A program made the translations under genes and the position numbers. Source: Chloroflexota bacterium (GTDB lineage: Bacteria; Chloroflexota; Anaerolineae; Ardenticatenales; Ardenticatenaceae). From it: DNA of 6,599 bases. The notes under the pieces are model-generated. The model made no database searches. It worked only from the letters and a program-made list of their open reading frames with translations, and was not told the DNA's origin. The stretch is from assembly GCA_003520455.1 (NCBI GenBank), contig DOUV01000404.1, forward strand, positions 279-6,877. The letters run 5' to 3'. Positions 2 through 6,599 of the stretch are shown here, piece after piece. Position 1 is the first letter of the stretch, and every line of letters starts with the position of its first letter.

Positions 2-286
2 TTACTGCAGGCTCGGCTTCACTTGTGCTCTTTGGGGACGTGGTGCAGGAATCCCATAGAGCATGCCTGCCGCACTGATGTCCTCATCAATGTCCGGCCA
101 GTGAACTCCCTCTCCGTCTCCAATGATTTCATACCTGGCCCTTTGCTCGGGAGTTGCTTCGGCCAGGCGCCATGACCAGACTAAGGGCACGCTGATTGTG
201 CGCCCATCGGTGAGGTGGGCAGTCATCGTGTCATCTGTGACTTCGATTTCCGTAATCAGGATCTCTGCTGTCACCACAGTGTTCAT
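2..286 (-). CDS. DUF2442 domain protein (intact)
   Basis: This is a complete 94-residue protein starting at ATG 286 and ending with TAA at 2-4. It matches the DUF2442 family: an N-terminal beta-rich half containing LTDGRTISVPLVWSWRL, then the family hallmark HWPDIDEDISAAGML near residues 62-75. A GAGG Shine-Dalgarno-like stretch lies six bases before the ATG. DUF2442 proteins are small, cytoplasmic and of unknown biochemical function. They are often encoded directly downstream of a DUF4160 gene, and some authors treat the pair as toxin-antitoxin-like; that role is unproven. No intact DUF4160 gene precedes it here, though the leader may hold a decayed one. It is the lowest-coordinate gene of the window, so its own attC site would lie beyond base 1. 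Confidence 0.88.
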   Translation of the reverse strand: MNTVVTAEILITEIEVTDDTMTAHLTDGRTISVPLVWSWRLAEATPEQRARYEIIGDGEGVHWPDIDEDISAAGMLYGIPAPRPQRAQVKPSLQ

Positions 287-402: not shown

Positions 403-486
403 CTTCAACCTGTGTGCCGGATGGCGACGTTCAGCCGCGCGGGGGCGATGCGGCCGCAACGCCCGGCTTCGCGCACACCGTTGGTG
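403..486 (-). other. attC-like site, degenerate (DUF1028 cassette)
   Basis: Nested complementary blocks converge on a centre near 445. CAAC 406-409 pairs with GTTG 480-483, GTGTGC 412-417 with GCACAC 473-478, and AGCCG 433-437 with CGGCT 464-468. On the minus strand the outer boxes read CACCAAC (R''-like) and GTTGAAG (R'-like), each deviating from RYYYAAC or GTTRRRY. It lies seven bases after the stop of the DUF1028 fragment, the correct place for that cassette's attC. Spacing and nesting favour a degenerate or divergent attC, but an unrelated palindrome is possible. Confidence 0.45.
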
Positions 487-492
487 GGCGCC

Positions 493-762
493 TCAATGAG
501 GCAGGATGGCCCGCGCCTGGCGTATGGCCGCGCCGGAATCCTGGCTCAGCAATTGCTCGAGTATAGCCCGTGGTTTCAGACCGGCGCGCAATCCTCGTAA
601 CGCTTCATTACCATAGACTGGATTAACAAAGGATTGCGATGCGACGACACCCACGCCTGCCTCAATCCAGGGCACATGTCGCCCTGCTGCGAAGGAGCGT
701 GATTGAATCGCTATACCCAATTCCCCGGTGCTCCGATCGCGAGCAATGATTGAGTAAGTCAT
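493..762 (-). pseudogene. DUF1028 protein, N-terminal fragment
   Basis: The 89-residue frame starts at ATG 762 with a GAGGTG Shine-Dalgarno-like stretch four bases upstream. It opens with MTYSIIARDRSTGELGIAIQ and continues with VPWIEAGVGVVASQSFVNPVYG, the conserved N-terminal block of DUF1028 proteins (related to Ntn-hydrolase-like folds; function not firmly known). Family members normally exceed 200 residues. This frame follows them to about residue 80 (AAIRQ), then runs into eight unrelated residues and a TGA. The other two frames downstream do not restore the family sequence. The stop sits directly beside an attC-like palindrome, so the gene appears to have been truncated where the recombination site was joined. 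It may still be translated as a short protein, but it is unlikely to fold as a complete DUF1028 domain. Confidence 0.8.
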
Positions 763-818
763 ACGTCACCTCACGATGTTTCGATGACTGCCTTACACCC
801 TAATGCGCCCGTTCCGCC

Positions 819-882
819 GCCCAACGGTCCGGTTCAGCGGCGGGCCGCGCAGCGGTCCATCCGCTGCAACCGGTTGTTAGGC
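819..882 (-). other. attC site of the GNAT cassette
   Basis: The outer boxes on the plus strand are GCCCAAC (819-825) and GTTAGGC (876-882). The inner arms CCGGTTCAGCGG (829-840) and CCGCTGCAACCGG (861-873) are complementary except for one extra C in the right arm, which is an extrahelical G on the minus strand. The extra base lies on the side expected when the cassette gene is on the minus strand. The 64-bp site begins 17 bases after the acetyltransferase stop. Confidence 0.92.
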
Positions 883-899
883 GCGGAGCGGTGCGCATG

Positions 900-1448
900 T
901 TACTTTCCGGCGCCGAGTTCCAATCGCATGACGTGCCGACGTGAGCCCAGCTGTCCCACCTCATGAAATCCTTCCCGTTTAAAGAACGGCACGAATCCTC
1001 CGAACCGGTAGCTGGGGGAGTCCGGATCGACGGGGTACGCCTCCAGTGCCATCGCTCCCGCTTTGCGCGCTTCGGCAAGGGCCGCCTGCAGCAGCATCCG
1101 CATGACACCACTGCATCGGAACTCGCGGTGGACGTAGAAGCAGGTCACGGACCACACTGGATCGGATTGCTCTCCAACCACGGCCAAGCCACGAAAGCTC
1201 TCTCGAGGCCCTAACGAACACCAAGCGACCGGAGCCCCGTCAGAATATCCCAGGAGTCCCAGGCGTACACCAGTGTGGACCAACTCGCGCATGGCACGCT
1301 TGCGCTCCGGACCATTGGCTTTGGGGACCCTTCCGTCAAGGGCGGCGCGGAAGAGCATGCACCAACAGCCCCGCAACGTCCCGCGGCTTTCGAAAAGCCG
1401 TTCCAAGTCCGGCCAGCGATTCGGAGTCACCTGATGGATCTTGATCAT
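900..1448 (-). CDS. GNAT family N-acetyltransferase
   Basis: This is a GCN5-related N-acetyltransferase of about 182 residues, predicted to move an acetyl group from acetyl-CoA to an amine; the substrate is unknown. Near the N-terminus is GCWCMLF, common in a subgroup of environmental GNATs. The central acetyl-CoA-binding motif A is FYVHREFRCSGVMRMLLQAAL, which keeps the R-x-x-G-V core. The C-terminal half has LEAYPVDPDSPSYRFGG and FFKREGFHEVG, typical of motif B and the last strand. Two in-frame ATGs compete. The one at 1460 directly abuts the only good Shine-Dalgarno (GGAGG, 1462-1466), leaving one base of spacing. The one at 1448 leaves 13 bases and begins MIKIHQV as homologues usually do, so 1448 is preferred. 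The frame is intact, with an attC site on each side. GNATs are frequent integron cargo, some conferring drug resistance, but nothing here points to an antibiotic substrate. Confidence 0.9.
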   Translation of the reverse strand: MIKIHQVTPNRWPDLERLFESRGTLRGCWCMLFRAALDGRVPKANGPERKRAMRELVHTGVRLGLLGYSDGAPVAWCSLGPRESFRGLAVVGEQSDPVWSVTCFYVHREFRCSGVMRMLLQAALAEARKAGAMALEAYPVDPDSPSYRFGGFVPFFKREGFHEVGQLGSRRHVMRLELGAGK

Positions 1449-1473
1449 GTCACGTGCCATTCCTCCAAGGCGC

Positions 1474-1539
1474 GCCTAACGCCTTGCCAATAAGCTGCGG
1501 GCGCCGCAGGCGCCCGTCAGCTTCATCGGCTTGTTAGGC
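1474..1539 (-). other. attC site of the DUF1579-like cassette
   Basis: The outer boxes are GCCTAAC (1474-1480) and GTTAGGC (1533-1539). On the minus strand the arms are GCCGATGAAGCTG and CAGCTTATTGGC, complementary apart from one extra G in the left arm and a G-T pair. The centre is a perfect seven-base inverted repeat, GGGCGCC (1499-1505) and GGCGCCC (1509-1515), around a GCA loop. This is the most regular attC in the window. Confidence 0.95.
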
Positions 1540-1654
1540 CGCATCGTTCAGGGAGGACTTCATGTTCCAAGGAACCGTACAACGATTTGCAGGAGCGGAA
1601 CGGGATCATGACCGTATTTGGAGCGAGCAACCGCCTGGGCCAGGCCCGGTGGCG

Positions 1655-2104
1655 TTAGCTGTCTACTCTGCGGAGGATGAGGTCGAAGTCGGTCGTGTAG
1701 TTGATGCCATCTTCGGCGATCTCCCAGCGTCCGGTGATCGTTTTCCCGTCGTCGCTGAACGTCGCTGTGAAGCGCTGGGAGAACGGCTCGCCATCCCGCC
1801 AGAGCTTCCACTTGCCGTTGCCGATACTCATCTCGTAGATACGACAGACGCCGCGCTCGTCGGAGTACAGCTGGAAGTACGTCCCGTTGGCCGCATCGCA
1901 TCCCATGATAGAGACGTTGTCGGGCGCGTCGGGATGCTCGGCCGTCCCACGTTGGATCAGGTGAGCCCCCGAGTCGTGCCACTCGAAAGTGACCCTTCCG
2001 CCGCCCGGCCACGGCTCTCCGCTGGGCCATTTGGCCTCCAAGGTCCACTCACCGACCAGAGGCTCGAGCTGGCGTAGCGCTTGCTCCGCAGTTGGTTGGT
2101 CCAT
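1655..2104 (-). CDS. DUF1579-like small beta-barrel protein
   Basis: This is an intact 149-residue protein beginning MDQPTAEQALRQLEPLVGEW. The LVGEW stretch, followed by alternating beta strands with VTFEWHDSGAHLIQRG, GCDAANGTYFQLYSDERGV and a closing GRWEIAEDG then FDLILRRV, matches DUF1579-like, lipocalin or nitrobindin-like proteins of unknown function that are common in soil bacteria. The start at 2104 is chosen because AAGGAG (2112-2117) lies seven bases upstream and homologues begin here. An upstream in-frame ATG at 2176 would add 24 residues encoded by the cassette leader and lacks a ribosome site. No signal peptide or membrane segment is seen, so it is probably cytoplasmic. After the TAA, the 115 bases up to the attC site (1540-1654) hold no gene, only a GC-rich imperfect palindrome near 1633-1645. 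Confidence 0.85.
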   Translation of the reverse strand: MDQPTAEQALRQLEPLVGEWTLEAKWPSGEPWPGGGRVTFEWHDSGAHLIQRGTAEHPDAPDNVSIMGCDAANGTYFQLYSDERGVCRIYEMSIGNGKWKLWRDGEPFSQRFTATFSDDGKTITGRWEIAEDGINYTTDFDLILRRVDS

Positions 2105-2179
2105 CGATCCGCTCCTTCCTCTTGTGATCGCTCGCAGTCGCGCCGCACTCGCAGGGCCTAAGTCCTCACGGAGCATGCA

Positions 2180-2279
2180 GCCTAACGATTACGCTCAGCG
2201 GCGCGCCTGGCCGGCGCGATTCTTGCGTACGCAAGAATCGTGACAGTTAGGCGCGTCCGTCTGCAGCGCATTGTCAGGC
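2180..2279 (-). other. attC site of the nucleotidyltransferase cassette
   Basis: This is a long (100 bp) attC bounded by GCCTAAC (2180-2186) and GTCAGGC (2273-2279). The minus-strand arms GCGCTGCAG and CGCTGAGCG pair with one extra G in the left arm. Inside are a second stem (CGCGCC 2202-2207 with GGCGCG 2250-2255) and a perfect 24-base palindrome (2217-2240), so three stems nest around one centre. The stop codon of the nucleotidyltransferase (TGA, 2274-2276) lies within the R'' box. A GTTAGGC at 2246-2252 looks like another R box, but part of it belongs to the second stem. Confidence 0.9.
2217..2240. repeat. Perfect 24-base palindrome at the tip of an attC
   Basis: The two halves are exact reverse complements with the centre between 2228 and 2229 (core TGCGTACGCA). 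It forms the variable terminal structure of the surrounding attC. A perfect palindrome with no loop is unusual, since attC tips normally keep a few unpaired bases. Confidence 0.95.
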
Positions 2280-2675
2280 GCGAGCGGCCTGGTTAGCCGC
2301 CCGGAGTAACTGCTTCGGATCGTACAGTACCTTGACGCCGTCAGTCAGGACCCTCTTCGTTCCCGCGTCAAGCGGTATACTCGCCCAGTTCGGCGCGGCG
2401 ATGCCGAACTCAACCTCAAGCCCGTTGCAATAGAAAATACGGCGAGACTTCGAGGCACCGTAATCCTCGATCGACGAAGACTGGACGTCACCAAAGCGCG
2501 CCGGCCAACTTCCATCGAGCAAATCCGCAGGAGACTCGGAGAGGATGACGAGATCGATATCCGAATCCGGTCTCGCCACGCCTCGAGCGTACGAGCCGAC
2601 GAGCGCTCTGCCAACAACGTCGCAACGGTCCTCGGCCCATGCGATCACCGCTTCCAGGAAGGCTGTGATGTTCAC
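2274..2675 (-). CDS. Nucleotidyltransferase domain protein (MNT/Pol-beta type)
   Basis: This is an intact protein of about 133 residues beginning MNITAFLEAVIAW. The catalytic signature of the Pol-beta nucleotidyltransferase superfamily is clear: LVGSYARGVARPDSDIDLVI, with the G-S motif and the metal-binding D-x-D. The later EVEFGIAAPNW probably supplies the third acidic residue. The end is typical of minimal nucleotidyltransferases (VLTDGVKVLYDP). Such enzymes transfer a nucleoside monophosphate to a protein, RNA or small molecule; MntA antitoxins and aminoglycoside nucleotidyltransferases share the fold. No HEPN partner toxin is adjacent, so its target is unknown. The GTG start at 2675 is chosen because AGGAG (2686-2690) lies ten bases upstream. 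A longer frame could begin at a TTG at 2699, but that TTG is inside the attC crossover box. The stop is inside the R'' box of its own attC. Confidence 0.9.
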   Translation of the reverse strand: MNITAFLEAVIAWAEDRCDVVGRALVGSYARGVARPDSDIDLVILSESPADLLDGSWPARFGDVQSSSIEDYGASKSRRIFYCNGLEVEFGIAAPNWASIPLDAGTKRVLTDGVKVLYDPKQLLRAANQAARA

Positions 2676-2693
2676 TGGACTTTCACTCCTCCC

Positions 2694-2848
2694 GCCCAAC
2701 GCCTATCGGCCGTTCGGAGACCCAAGCCGTCGCTACGTCTGTTATCAATCGTAAGAAACATCCCCGTCGCCTGCCTCCAACGTAGAGCTCGGTATCCGAT
2801 CTCACTTCGGTCTCCCCACGGCTACTGCTCGAGCGCCTAGTGTTTGGC
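2694..2848 (-). other. attC site, degenerate and long (cassette 4)
   Basis: The right-hand part on the minus strand is canonical: R' box GTTGGGC (2694-2700) preceded by an L'-like arm CCGAACGGCCGATAGG. No fully complementary left arm is found. The best R'' candidate is GCCAAAC (2842-2848, one mismatch to the R' box), three bases after a TAG stop, but its L'' arm pairs only in short pieces. Between them lie nested inverted repeats (2716-2815). Either this is a 155-bp divergent attC, or only the R'/L' half survives. Confidence 0.5.
2716..2815. repeat. Nested inverted repeats inside degenerate attC
   Basis: GGAGACC (2716-2722) and GGTCTCC (2809-2815) are exact complements. The pairing continues one base further in with AAG (2724-2726) and CTT (2805-2807). 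A second pair, CTACGT (2733-2738) and ACGTAG (2780-2785), nests inside. The element is about 100 bp and encodes nothing recognisable. It could be the terminal structure of the attC, a small structured RNA, or a tiny mobile element with 11-base imperfect ends. Confidence 0.6.
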
Positions 2849-2850
2849 GC

Positions 2851-3798
2851 CTAAGTGATGCCGGCAGCCATGGCAGGGGCGCGCGGGAGCCACTTGTGGC
2901 CGCCGACGCTGCCAGGAAGTCGGAGGCGCTCGTGATCGGTACAGAAGTTGGTGACGGCGCCAACCAGATACATGCCCGTCTCCAAGGTCGCAGAGTGACG
3001 AGCCAGAGCACGCGTCCGGCGGGCCAGGGGCGCCAGCCGTGCGCGGAAGGTGGCGTTGAGGCGCTCGATGGAGGCGGTATTGAGCACGCCCGGGCCTTGG
3101 GTCTAGCGAATCAGGGGTGCCACCACCGCATCGGCTCCCTGGACGATCCGGCGCGAGACCCCGACGACCTGTCGCCCCGCATCCTGCTTGATGACTGGCC
3201 CAATACAGAGGTCGTCCCAGGGGCGCAGGCGCGGCCGGCCGCGTCTGCCAGTCGGGATCGGCTCGCGAAAGACGGCCTGGATCGCACTCACGTAGCTGCT
3301 CAGGCCATCAACCGCGATCAGCAACGGCCGACAGAGCGCACAGGCCCGAATGATGGCGACCACGCGGGTGATCAAGGCCCCGTCGCGCGCCGCACTGATC
3401 GCCCCGCCCAACCACAAGCGCGTCGAGACCTGGATCGCCAGGGCCATCCACACCCGTCGGCCTTGTTGTTTGACCCAGAGTTCGTCGGCTTGGACCTGTC
3501 CCAGGTCACGCGCCTGCACCACCAAGTGCTTGTGCCCCCGCTGACACTGCGCCCCGGCACGACCAGGCCACGCCCGCGCCGTCCGTTCATCCAACCCCAA
3601 GGCTATCACGATCGCTTGAATCGGACAGCCATCGGCCAACAACGTCACCACCACCGTCACCAGGGCCGCATCCGTCCGCAGCCGATAGAACGCCGTCCCG
3701 TTGCGCTCGCTGAACGTCCGCCCGCATTCCGTGCAGCGATATCGCCGCTCCTTCTGGCTGTGGATGGTAATGTTCCCGGCGTCCCGTCGCCCTCTTGC
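2851..3798 (-). pseudogene. IS1-like DDE transposase, truncated, with in-frame stop
   Basis: The frame begins within foreign sequence (an apparent ATG at 3837 lies in the oxidoreductase fragment). It becomes transposase-like at about ARGRRDAGNITIHSQKERRY, followed by a zinc-ribbon piece YRCTECGRTF, a helix-turn-helix (GCPIQAIVIALGLDERTARAW, split here as GCPIQAIVIAL and GLDERTARAW), then QADELWV (first D), AVDGLSSY (second D) and, after the stop, NTASIERLNATFR (catalytic E). A TAG at 3103-3105 interrupts it in frame, between APLIR and TQGPGVLNTASIERL, so the E region is separated from both aspartates. The C-terminus ends at RAPAMAAGIT where relatives continue about 30 residues. The first ten or so N-terminal residues are also missing. 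No inverted-repeat ends are recognisable. The type resembles IS1-related transposases I associate with Chloroflexota. It is inactive as it stands. Confidence 0.85.
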
Positions 3799-4027
3799 CG
3801 TGTACGTCCTGCGGCAGAAACGGCAGCGGCGGCGCATGACGTACCACGATCCAGGCCGTCATCTCGTCCGGCAGGCCGCGCACGTAGTCGCGGTGAAACC
3901 GTATGTACGCCTTCGCGTCTTCGAACTTCTTGATGATCAGTCCCGAGTAAACCTCGGGGCCGATGGCCACACACCTGAACCGGAAGGAGGTGACGATGCC
4001 GAAGTTGCCGCCGCCGCCTCGGATGCC
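3794..4027 (-). pseudogene. FAD-linked oxidoreductase, internal fragment
   Basis: About 78 residues in one frame match the middle of FAD/FMN-containing dehydrogenases of the BBE-like (berberine-bridge, PCMH-type FAD domain) family. The end of the FAD-binding domain is IRGGGGNFGIVTSFRFRC, then GPEVYSGLIIKKFEDAKAY and, near the end, APPLPFLPQDVHGK. Full members have over 450 residues, so both ends are missing. The upstream end joins the truncated DUF2442 gene near 4028; the downstream end joins the transposase fragment near 3794-3798. The transposase is read in a different frame. The piece has no start or stop of its own and is a passenger fragment. Confidence 0.85.
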
Positions 4028-4028
4028 C

Positions 4029-4187
4029 CCTGACCTGGGAGAAATACTCGCGATCCCGAAGGGGCTCAAAAATGCCGGTGAACTCAACCAGTTTGGTTAC
4101 ATCGATCACGCCTTCCGTACCATCTTCGAAGCGCAGCTGAACCTGAAACTCGCCGACTGCCTGCACCGCGACAATATCCTTCAACAT
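4029..4187 (-). pseudogene. DUF2442 protein, C-terminally truncated
   Basis: The gene starts at ATG 4187, six bases after the DUF4160 stop, and reads MLKDIVAVQAVGEFQVQLRF, then EDGTEGVIDVTKLVEFTG and REYFSQVR, a good match to the first 53 residues of small DUF2442 proteins. These are normally about 75-90 residues and end with a segment containing 'WPNGADLDPD'. After codon 53 the DNA changes to oxidoreductase sequence, so the hallmark C-terminal segment is gone. The remaining frame runs on as low-complexity arginine-rich read-through to 3657. The pairing with DUF4160 upstream is the standard arrangement. Confidence 0.85.
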
Positions 4188-4192
4188 CGCTG

Positions 4193-4453
4193 CTACTCCA
4201 ATGGGGCTATGGGATTGAGGGGTGCCTGGTCGCGCGCCAGCTTCCAGTTCTGCCTCAATTCATCCTGATGGGCTGCGGCCCACTCAACAACCATGCCAGC
4301 GACCCTGGGGGACAGTTGCCCCCGAAGAAGGCCGAGCGTTTCAATGGCTACCAGCGCTCTCTGGTCCCCATATCAGGCGTGGAAATGTGGCGCCTAATGA
4401 TCGTTGTAGTACATCGTGATCACAATCCCGAAGAAGCGACTGAGCTCTGGCAT
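4193..4453 (-). pseudogene. DUF4160 protein with two in-frame stops
   Basis: From ATG 4453 to TAG 4193-4195 lie 87 codons in one frame, interrupted at codon 20 (TAG, 4394-4396) and codon 27 (TGA, 4373-4375). Reading through gives MPELSRFFGIVITMYYNDH, stop, APHFHA, stop, YGDQRALVAIETLGLLRGQL, then VVEWAAAHQDELRQNW and NPIAPLE at the end. This matches DUF4160 proteins over the whole length, including the family motif 'NDHxPPHFHA', which the stops flank. The second stop is one transition away from CGA (Arg), the usual residue there. Length and both termini are correct, so the gene decayed by point mutation. No strong promoter is seen; the leader (4454-4544) has a TATGAT that could be a -10 element, without a clear -35. 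Confidence 0.88.
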
Positions 4454-4544
4454 GGAAGCCTATCCGCCTCGTTTGCTGTTCAACCCGGTCAACCCGATCA
4501 TAACCCAGTTTACACTACCGGCATCCGTGGGAGCAGCATCGGCC

Positions 4545-4666
4545 GCCCAACGCCCGAGCTTAGCGGCGCTCCTGTGATCTCCCATTCACTTTTGCTGAAC
4601 CCACGCCTCGCTTCAATCGGCCTTAAGGCCCTGCTTTCGGCGTCCGCTGCAGGCGAGATGTTGGGC
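4545..4666 (-). other. attC site of the epimerase cassette
   Basis: The outer boxes on the plus strand are GCCCAAC (4545-4551) and GTTGGGC (4660-4666), exact complements. The next arms, AGCTTAGCGGCGC on the left and GCGTCCGCTGCAGGC on the right, pair over TAGCGG/CCGCTG(C) with interruptions. The 122-bp site starts 22 bases after the epimerase stop. The long central part holds CCTTAAGG (4620-4627) and no gene. Confidence 0.85.
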
Positions 4667-4688
4667 GGCGGCCCTGTATGAGCACCCT

Positions 4689-5715
4689 TCATCGACCACC
4701 TGCTGCAATTGCGAGGGCCTCATCTTCAGCGGCGTAGTCGAACTTTGATTGGTCAAAATCCTTTGGCGGATTGGCACGTTCCCACGCCACAGCACGTCGC
4801 ATGGCTTCATCTGGCGGCGTCGGCTCCGTGTATCCCAACTCCGTACGGATACGCGATGAGTCCAGTGACCAATGTTGAGAAGTATCGTAATCGGACTTCA
4901 AGTGCAGCGGCATGTGCTCTTCGGGTAATGTCACAATCTCGCCGCTCCAACCTGCCGCTCGAGCGATGCGACGTACCCATGCCGCTTCCGCCAGGTTCTC
5001 GGGGTCGGCTACATGGTAGATGCGCCCTGCCGCTCGGTCGTTGGCAACACAGAGCGCGATCGCCTTGCCCATGTCCTCGACATAACCGCGCAACCCTCGC
5101 CACATTGCCTGGCCTCTGGAAAGCAGAATAGCCCGGCGCTTGTCATCCATCCGTTTGAGGTACTCAAACAGACGATGCTGGTAATCACCTGGGCCATAGA
5201 CCATTGGCAAGCGTAGCACAGTAGCGGGTAGGTCCGGCTCACTCATCACGGCGCGTTCCATAAGAATCTTCTCGTACTTGAAAAGAAAATCATCAGGCCC
5301 TCGCGCCTGATCCCGATAAGGAAAAAGGCGGTCGCGCAGTGGGGAATCTTCGGTGAGCGGGGTTGGGTCGGGTGGGCCTGGGTCTACACGGCGGAAGCGA
5401 TCGTAGGCGCGGTAGACATCGCCGCTACTGATGGCGACCACACGGCGGGCGATCCCTTTGAACAGGACAACCAATGTTTTACCTTCCTGCTCGGTGCAAG
5501 GAAGCATATCGAGGACAATATCGGGCGCGAAGTTTCGGAAATCATGGATAATCAGGCGGCCGTTCGCGGTCGCCGTGGAGATGGAGTACGCTTGGCGACA
5601 ATGAGGCTTCCGTTTGGCCGCGATGAAAGAGTGCAACTTCGTGCCCAGTTTGGACAAGCCAGCGGACAGCATGTGGCCCTATGAAGTTGGTTCCGCCGAG
5701 GACAAGGACACGCAT
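4689..5715 (-). pseudogene. NAD-dependent epimerase/dehydratase with frameshift
   Basis: This is an extended short-chain dehydrogenase of about 341 residues, split between two frames. The N-terminal part starts at ATG 5715 (MRVLVLGGTNFIGPHAVRWL), with the NAD(P)-binding GGTNFIG motif at residues 7-13, and runs to a TGA at 5542-5544 (codon 58). The remainder continues in the +1-shifted frame from about DFRNFAPDIVLDMLP to the stop at 4689. It includes VVAISSGDVYRAY, YEKILMERAV, VLRLPMVYGPGDYQHR, RGYVEDMGKAIALC, and an end rich in family residues (AVAWERANPP, FDYAAEDEAL). A one-base insertion or two-base loss near 5545 explains the shift. The apparent start at 5672 of the downstream frame is an artefact. 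Family members act on nucleotide sugars or related substrates; this one's substrate is unknown. A sequencing error is the alternative explanation. Confidence 0.88.
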
Positions 5716-5757
5716 CCTGCTTTCCGGCCTTCGCTATGATGTGGCGTCGCTGCCGAG

Positions 5758-5954
5758 GCCTAACGACCTCGAGCTCAGCGGTCCGGGCTTCAACCTCGCC
5801 CGATCATGGCGCCTTGCGCCGTTCGAGGACGCTCTACGGGTCCGCTGCCCCCGAAGGCGATCCCTCCCGAAGGACATCGGCCGTAGGTCCCCGTCAGGGG
5901 GAACGATGTCCCGAAAGAGATCGGGATGGTATGCGGGACAGCGAGGTTTTGGGC
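5758..5954 (-). other. attC-like site, long and degenerate (DUF1801 cassette)
   Basis: The R' box GCCTAAC (5758-5764) is canonical and is followed by the arm ACCTCGAGCTCAGCGG. The best partner on the other side is CGAGGT (5942-5947) and TTGGGC (5949-5954), which pair with ACCTCG and GCCTAA respectively. The inner L boxes match poorly, and at about 197 bp the site would be unusually long. It lies 38 bases after the DUF1801 stop, where an attC is expected, and encloses a strong hairpin at 5860-5927. There is no gene in this stretch. Confidence 0.5.
5860..5927. repeat. Nested hairpin in non-coding DNA
   Basis: Three pairs share a centre near 5894: ATCCC (5860-5864) with GGGAT (5923-5927), GGACATCG (5872-5879) with CGATGTCC (5904-5911), and TCCCC (5888-5892) with GGGGA (5898-5902) around a GTCAG loop. 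CCGAA stretches flank the middle stem. It is probably the terminal structure of the surrounding attC-like site. A transcription terminator or structured RNA is possible, but no U-tract follows. Confidence 0.7.
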
Positions 5955-5991
5955 AGTGATTCTTGTCATGGGCACAATGCCGCGAGGTCCT

Positions 5992-6191
5992 CTATTCCTT
6001 CTTCCCTTTCGCTTTTCCTCGTCCCAAGTTCTCTCTTACCCTGAATTTGACGATCTGGCTGATCAGGGTGTTCGGAATCGGTCTGTCAAATGGAAACTTC
6101 ACCGAACCCTTTGCAGAATCTCCTGGATATCTCGCGGGAAGCCCGCGATGTACTCATCAACATTCTTGGGTGCGGTCGGATTGGTTTTCAC
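5992..6191 (-). pseudogene. DUF1801 (YdhG-like) protein with large internal deletion
   Basis: The N-terminal piece starts at GTG 6191 (GGAGG at 6196-6200, four bases upstream) and reads MKTNPTAPKNVDEYIAGFP, then RDIQEILQ, the usual beginning of DUF1801/YdhG proteins. In the next frame the sequence continues directly as KGSVKFPFDRPIPNTLISQI, VKFRVRENLG and RGKAKGKKE before TAG at 5992-5994, the usual end of the same family. The two halves meet at about 6110, within CAAAGGG. Members have roughly 110-140 residues, so some 60-70 codons including the core of the domain are missing, and the reading frame is broken (TGA 6099-6101). The protein is a frataxin-like fold of unknown function; this copy cannot make it. 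The deletion is read directly from the sequence; the deleted length is inferred from the family. Confidence 0.85.
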
Positions 6192-6228
6192 GTCTCCTCC
6201 CACGACATAGGTACGAGCCTTCTGAACC

Positions 6229-6294
6229 GCCCAACGCCTCGGGCGTAACCTGCAGGCGCCGAAGGCGACCGTCAGGTTCACGGCCACGTGAGGC
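6229..6294 (-). other. attC site of the methyltransferase cassette
   Basis: The plus-strand boxes are GCCCAAC (6229-6235) and GTGAGGC (6288-6294; one deviation from GTTRRRY). The minus-strand arms GCCGTGAACCTG and CAGGTTACGCC are complementary with one extra G in the left arm. The tip is CGCC-GAA-GGCG. The site begins 11 bases after the methyltransferase stop. Confidence 0.9.
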
Positions 6295-6305: not shown

Positions 6306-6599
6306 TCAGGTCGTGCCTCGGACGCCCCAAGCACGCGCAATCAAGGGAAGCGTTCCGTCTGCTGCAGGCGGGAGGCGGCTTGCCAGTGCTGTGCGCAACC
6401 TCGCGCGCTCCTCATCGTTGAGCGCAACGACGTAGCCGGGCGCCGGGCCCTGGCCGCCCTCGAAGGGCGCCCAGTAGTCGTCGAAGTTCTGGAATCGCGT
6501 CGGAATTTCTAATGAGCGTACTTCAACACTTTTGAGTCCAACATTCTCGAACAGTCGCCTGAGCGGGTCCGGCCGGCAAAGCGAGAATCGCGCCCCCTC
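6306..6599 (-). CDS. Class I SAM-dependent methyltransferase, C-terminal part
   Basis: The frame is open from the window edge (first codon GAG at 6597-6599) to TGA at 6306-6308, giving 97 residues without a start in view. It reads RFSLCRPDPLRRLFENVGL, SVEVRSLEIPTRFQNFDDYW, APFEGGQGPAPGYV, then LNDEERARLRTALASRLP and finally LIARAWGVRGTT. This arrangement (a strand with F..AGL-like and IPT.F..FDDYW, a glycine-proline loop, an L.d..R..LR.aL helix, and a final A.AWAVRG-type strand) is characteristic of the C-terminal third of small class I methyltransferases annotated as ubiquinone/menaquinone-type or unspecified. The SAM-binding motif would lie beyond the window, so the substrate cannot be judged. 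Position and attC at its 3' end make it the first cassette here. Confidence 0.82.
   Translation of the reverse strand, partial: EGARFSLCRPDPLRRLFENVGLKSVEVRSLEIPTRFQNFDDYWAPFEGGQGPAPGYVVALNDEERARLRTALASRLPPAADGTLPLIARAWGVRGTT

Follow-up and report, generated by a model that had tools for sequence, protein, structure and literature searches.

What kind of element is the 6,599-nucleotide stretch of Chloroflexota DNA at positions 279 to 6,877 of contig DOUV01000404.1 (the whole stretch, here called the window), in which a row of leftward genes is separated by palindromes? An earlier note, made from the letters alone, proposed integron cassettes: nine gene units set apart by eight attC sites. The window very probably lies inside an integron gene-cassette array and is cut at both ends by the contig. 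The system is well known and this example of it ordinary, with little novelty. The array reading is supported by a covariance model of attC sites, by a strand test and by a near-identical attC beside an integrase gene (intI). Direct observations are the sites and the strand on which they lie, how well they fit integrase-linked attC sites, and their position between genes.

If the window works as known integrons do, each cassette would pair a short gene with an attC site behind it. The tyrosine recombinase IntI, which in a complete integron would be encoded on the high-coordinate side, would fold the plus strand of the attC (seen from the genes, the bottom strand) and cut it at the right-hand outer box. 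Insertion and removal of cassettes in one orientation would follow from this.

The attC sites and their strand

Integron integrases were sought with the NCBIfam profile TIGR02249 in two genome sets. At E<=1e-80, 63 of 150 genomes matched in the order of G001 (genome of locus L032, a Brachymonas metagenome-assembled genome, MAG; taken as Burkholderiales), and at E<=1e-70, 32 of 199 genomes matched in the phylum of G006 (genome of locus L077, a Pirellulales MAG; taken as Planctomycetota). The stretches on the start side of part of these intI genes (39, comprising 20 from Burkholderiales and 19 from the Pirellulales phylum) were scanned for paired outer boxes whose arms can pair with each other, which gave 64 candidates from 23 of the 39 stretches. 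The covariance model, R1 (16 base pairs), was built from an alignment (A2) of 32 of 35 non-redundant short attC sites from integrase-linked arrays.

The test set consisted of the 16 intI-linked stretches outside training (empty in a stricter box scan) and 10 control loci. At 23 bits or more, R1 gave 19 matches, all within nine of the 16 intI-linked stretches, and each of the 19 on the strand that intI predicts; there were none in the remaining seven, and the 10 control loci gave a single match, at 10.3 bits. For the 20 Burkholderiales stretches, training sites included, 127 of 127 matches at E<=0.01 (in 19 of the stretches) lay on the expected strand.

With filters off, R1 found five attC sites in the window that score above 15.5 bits (the best score in 80 loci fetched as relatives of the GNAT gene, see below), at 21.2-47.1 bits, all on the minus strand, which is the gene strand:

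819-882, minus strand: attC, 64 nucleotides (47.1 bits, E 1.3e-11)
1474-1539, minus strand: attC, 66 nucleotides (39.3 bits, E 1.7e-9)
2180-2279, minus strand: attC, 100 nucleotides, containing a long hairpin (2202-2255) seen from its arms and fold (39.6 bits, E 1.4e-9)
4545-4666, minus strand: attC, 122 nucleotides (31.9 bits, E 1.8e-7)
6229-6294, minus strand: attC, 66 nucleotides, weakest of the five, with a degenerate left box (21.2 bits, E 1.4e-4)

The earlier note had named covariance-model matches at 819-882, 1474-1539 and 6229-6294, in gene orientation, as its test. All three were found, the last being the weakest. It had ended the site at 2180 at an inner box, at 2252; this is too short, as the R1 match extends to 2279, and the left outer box (GCCTGAC, 2273-2279) includes the TGA stop of the nucleotidyltransferase gene. 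Exact RYYYAAC/GTTRRRY pairs with a spacing of 40-170 nucleotides number four in the window, and one of these (2180-2252) relies on the inner box.

The distances from the crossover point to the next gene start are 19, 25, 62, 81 and 97 nucleotides (with gene starts as set by us), and those from the upstream stop to the attC are -6 (an overlap), 11, 17, 22 and 115 nucleotides. One gene per interval holds across 819-2279, which contains genes for a GNAT acetyltransferase and a protein of 149 amino acids. The interval 2280-4544 carries several units (a nucleotidyltransferase gene, a transposase gene, a fragment of a FAD-linked oxidase gene and a DUF4160/DUF2442 pair), and 4667-6228 carries two, with a half site alone between them.

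The palindromes are all GC-rich hairpins located after gene ends, as terminators or dispersed repeats of the repetitive extragenic palindromic (REP) kind would be, but it is very improbable that they are either of these rather than attC sites. Their scores rest on outer and inner boxes together with a one-base bulge. They are also asymmetric between the strands: the overlapping plus-strand matches reach 15.5 bits at 819-882 (against 47.1), 12.8 at 1474-1539, 11.5 at 2180-2279, 10.0 at 4545-4666 and 5.9 at 6229-6294. The 80 loci fetched as relatives of the GNAT gene, a different reason (1,409,454 bases; default filters, the loci being otherwise unchecked for integrons), gave a top R1 score of 15.5 bits. 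Rfam gave no match to the whole window at E<=1, whether it has an attC family not having been established.

Three further palindromes had been counted as boundaries between cassettes:

416-467, minus strand: attC-like palindrome at noise level (R1 13.1 bits)
2694-2700, minus strand: outer box GTTGGGC, well placed right before the nucleotidyltransferase gene, no partner arm found (box scan)
5758-5781, minus strand: right half of an attC by eye (outer and inner box), no partner arm found (box scan)

The first was rejected as an attC, its 13.1 bits being the score of a chance match in coding DNA at 4947-5044 on the other strand. The stretches 2694-2847 and 5758-5857 were rejected as well: each has a right outer box without a fitting partner arm, and neither has an R1 match at E<=10 with filters off. 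Both, and 403-475, were also folded before they were rejected on R1. Thus, the eight proposed sites comprise five attC sites, one palindrome at noise level and two half sites, and the division into nine units is an overcount.

Several points weigh against an integron array. Only five of the eight claimed boundaries hold. The training sites of R1 come from two bacterial groups. Among its eight weaker matches in the test set, three (15.5, 13.2 and 12.0 bits), all in intI-linked loci, have the wrong strand, and for this reason the onset of noise is placed there. The site at 6229-6294 is weak: its left outer box is GCCTCAC, against the consensus RYYYAAC, and under default filters in a search of 638 kb it fails at E<=0.01, which the other four pass, and passes in a search of 336 kb (21.3 bits, E 0.0069). 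Finally, no integrase was found in the window, either by Pfam and NCBIfam searches of the main frames or by tblastn with seven IntI proteins (best match E 0.05 over 46 residues). As the window has no integrase and attI was not searched for, we infer the integron itself from its cassettes.

The integrase side and the link to known integrons

The earlier note had described the array as being without a visible integrase. This is correct for the window but cannot be read from it as a property of the element: the contig breaks off on the side where attI and intI would lie, past base 6599, so the absence of intI from the window says nothing about the element as a whole. The gene at 6306-6599 runs off this high-coordinate end.

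A link to an integrase is provided by the attC at 819-882, which is identical in 58 of 64 positions to an attC in genome G262 (L170:16841-16904, that is, G262:C11:126250-126313), where an intI gene scoring 492.9 bits starts 3.1 kb away. With R1 and the strand test, this bears out the proposal that the cassettes are uniformly oriented, with attI and intI on the high-coordinate side. When one mismatch is tolerated, a 19-base arm of 819-882 is present in 12 of 199 genomes from the Pirellulales phylum and in six of 200 in the phylum of G005 (a Gemmatimonadetes MAG), against two of 199 and one of 200, respectively, for the reversed pattern. An R1 match of at least 20 bits was present in 10 of the 14 loci fetched by means of this arm.

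Two side observations concern these arms and loci. The exact 22-base left arm of 819-882 is found in two IMG/VR viral contigs (L081, 1231-1252; L082, 2570-2591), where nearby frames look by eye like DNA methyltransferases; R1 gave one truncated match (11.9 bits), which lies at the end of L082, and had no match in L081. At L200 (G318:C35:67065-70083), the attC matches lie on the stop side of intI (G318:C35:70963-71907) and on the same strand, which is the layout of an inverted integrase; inverted IntIs are mentioned as a sub-clade in an excerpt of PMC8352920.

The genes of the array and its broken middle

The genes and gene remnants of the window are as follows:

2-286, minus strand: cassette gene, DUF2442 protein, 94 amino acids (Pfam PF10387, 1.2e-20)
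493-762, minus strand: cassette gene, DUF1028 protein, N-terminal part with profile positions 1-85 of 193 (Pfam PF06267, 4.1e-27)
900-1460, minus strand: cassette gene, GNAT acetyltransferase, 186 amino acids (Pfam PF00583, 6.8e-9)
1655-2104, minus strand: cassette gene, 149 amino acids from the start used by homologues (longest frame from 2176), distantly DUF1579-like, below cut-off
2274-2675, minus strand: cassette gene, minimal nucleotidyltransferase, with its stop within the left box of the attC (Pfam PF01909, 4.6e-9 on 2274-2699)
2851-3837, minus strand: IS1/IS6-like transposase gene with an in-frame TAG at 3103-3105, inserted DNA rather than a cassette (NCBIfam, frames)
3779-4030, minus strand: fragment of a FAD-linked oxidase gene, overlapping the transposase start (NF041227, 2.3e-7, far under cut-off; plasmid DNA matches)
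4038-4187, minus strand: second DUF2442 gene, of which the FAD fragment leaves only the N-terminal part (PF10387, 2.5e-4, 21.6 bits, cut-off 23.9)
4193-4453, minus strand: DUF4160 gene, broken, with two stops in frame (PF13711, 1.6e-9 for 4193-4372; frames)
4689-5715, minus strand: frameshifted gene of an NAD-dependent epimerase/dehydratase, its two frames overlapping (PF01370, frames)
5995-6209, minus strand: small-gene remnant spread over two frames (open frames)
6306-6599, minus strand: end of a cassette gene running off the contig, 97 amino acids (open frame)

Mobile cassettes had been taken to explain the whole window, which is not so for about 2851-4030, where the transposase and the FAD-oxidase fragment lie. 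The transposase profiles match far under their cut-offs (NF033587, 4.1e-7; NF033558, 1.1e-6), a plasmid DNA search with the transposase stretch gave no records, and none of the 33 pairs of inverted repeats at 2690-4200 was judged to be transposon ends. The FAD-oxidase fragment has DNA matches to annotated FAD-binding genes of plasmid records; the plasmid search with the whole window gave 11 records, each covering 1-5% of it. At 3779-3837 the frames of the FAD-oxidase and the transposase overlap and each reads plausibly, leaving the exact junction ambiguous. At 4355-4454 there is a 76.2% DNA match to an annotated DUF4160 gene. The DUF4160 and DUF2442 genes at 4038-4453 stand in tandem within one cassette, and the other DUF2442 gene, at 2-286 in the same array, stands alone. 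In the epimerase gene, PF01370 matches at 1e-5 in the piece 4689-5672 and at 4.1e-4, just below cut-off, in 5542-5715. Thus, the cassettes do not form a clean series in the middle of the window; several of the genes cannot yield a full protein, and several cassettes are probably silent passengers.

Two explanations of these breaks have to be weighed. One is that the integron is normal and functional and that most breaks are errors of sequencing or assembly. This would suit the epimerase gene, the break in which looks like a single frameshift with both pieces recognisable, but in-frame stops (DUF4160, transposase) and a gene fragment within another gene are, in our judgement, atypical of insertion or deletion errors, and this explanation is improbable. 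On account of the in-frame stops and the gene-in-gene junctions, we infer that the array has decayed rather than been misassembled. The other, itself a form of the array reading, is a true CALIN (cluster of attC sites lacking integron-integrases), that is, attC sites which have lost their integrase and are decaying in place. The broken genes (two stops in DUF4160, truncated DUF1028 and DUF2442, a frameshifted epimerase, an in-frame stop in the transposase), the two half sites and the one degenerate attC agree with it. Against this, the contig ends inside the array on the intI side, where loss of intI and truncation cannot be told apart; four of the five attC sites score well; and CALINs are overestimated from draft assemblies, according to an excerpt of PMC9024848. 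A true CALIN is possible, with less than an even chance, within the broader reading of the window as part of a cassette array.

Relatives of the GNAT protein are at most 81% identical to it, its own protein excepted; a protein cluster 100% identical to it is recorded on two contigs. One relative of 77% identity (P0024) bears the source label of a Candidatus Hadarchaeum MAG, for which an archaeal integron and a binning error are both possible. The relatives in genome contigs (the best 80 of 519 kept) are at most 56% identical, and their flanks have no attC match above 15.5 bits; thus, among these distant relatives the gene was not seen as a cassette. In IMG/VR, 18 pattern matches gave no confirmed relative. 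Among solved structures the GNAT protein has one weak match (3f8k_A, E 1.3e-4), as has the nucleotidyltransferase (1wot_A, E 0.0063). The GTG start of the latter, at 2675, was chosen by eye, its longest frame reaching 2699. PADLOC, run on eight proteins, gave weak matches for the nucleotidyltransferase only (PDC-S09, PDC-M05A), and no defence role is claimed.

The 149-amino-acid protein matches PF07617 at E 0.033 (14.5 bits, cut-off 25.2) and has 2290 homologues at E<=0.001, the best being 89% identical among the 120 matches listed. Its matches in four of 200 genomes of the phylum of G005 and in four of 201 of the phylum of G007 (a Chloroflexi MAG) were set aside as too distant, at 36-48% identity. 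Neither piece of the remnant at 5995-6209 matches Pfam or NCBIfam; it may resemble DUF1801/YdhG proteins. The product of 6306-6599 has no Pfam or NCBIfam family match. As a sequence, the window is one further cassette array, and its genes (DUF2442, DUF1028, a GNAT enzyme and a minimal nucleotidyltransferase) have no known use.

The extrahelical base and comparison with known systems

In the R1 alignment, the bulge of all five sites of the window holds a G of the gene-sense strand, in the arm adjoining the stop of the upstream gene. At 4545-4666 the base is ambiguous, as a plain alignment of the arms shifts the extra base to a neighbouring C. The claim that four sites have the extrahelical G in the expected arm thus stands, with four sites clear and the fifth having G or C. 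A G at the bulge on the gene-sense strand means a C on the recombining (bottom) strand.

In the 19 Burkholderiales stretches with matches, the gene-sense base at the bulge is C in 114 of 127 sites, G in 11 and T in two. At the intI-linked loci of the Pirellulales phylum, L185 being left out, it is G in 19 of 33, C in 13 and T in one; L196-L202 were excluded from this count, having been selected with a pattern that includes the G. At L185 it is G in all 31 sites that the locus contributes to the 150 best matches. This locus (G165:C8:40154-60152) is a long attC array with sites much alike, mostly of 88-93 nucleotides. The window's sites thus differ from the Burkholderiales type, and nothing firmer follows. 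It is a doubtful though possible suggestion that the array comes from an integron with an integrase that prefers attC sites having C as the second extrahelical base of the bottom strand.

If bacterial groups differ in the bulge base, it might serve as a marker of cassette source and as a hint to which integrases accept the cassettes; the type of this base, which may vary among groups, is the one useful lead from the window. The excerpt of PMC8352920 already describes attC models used to predict source taxa, Planctomycetes included. A bottom-strand C at the bulge is not new, because it is known from the attC of dfrA1, where, in an excerpt of PMC3053210, the base alters excision by different integrases.

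Three known systems may be compared with the window. The attC of dfrA1 (the A-N7-8-C type in the PMC3053210 excerpt) has C as its second extrahelical bottom-strand base, as do the window's sites, and is likened to them for base type alone. The intI-linked integron of G262 (L170, in the phylum of G006) has an attC that shares 58 of 64 bases and the extra G with 819-882. CALINs, which by the IntegronFinder 2 default have at least two attC sites and no integrase nearby (PMC9024848 excerpt), resemble the window in having at least two attC sites of uniform orientation, with short genes between them and no integrase on the sequence at hand. The window differs from them in that its lack of intI is set by the end of the contig, several of its cassettes are broken, and a transposase and a gene fragment interrupt one of them.

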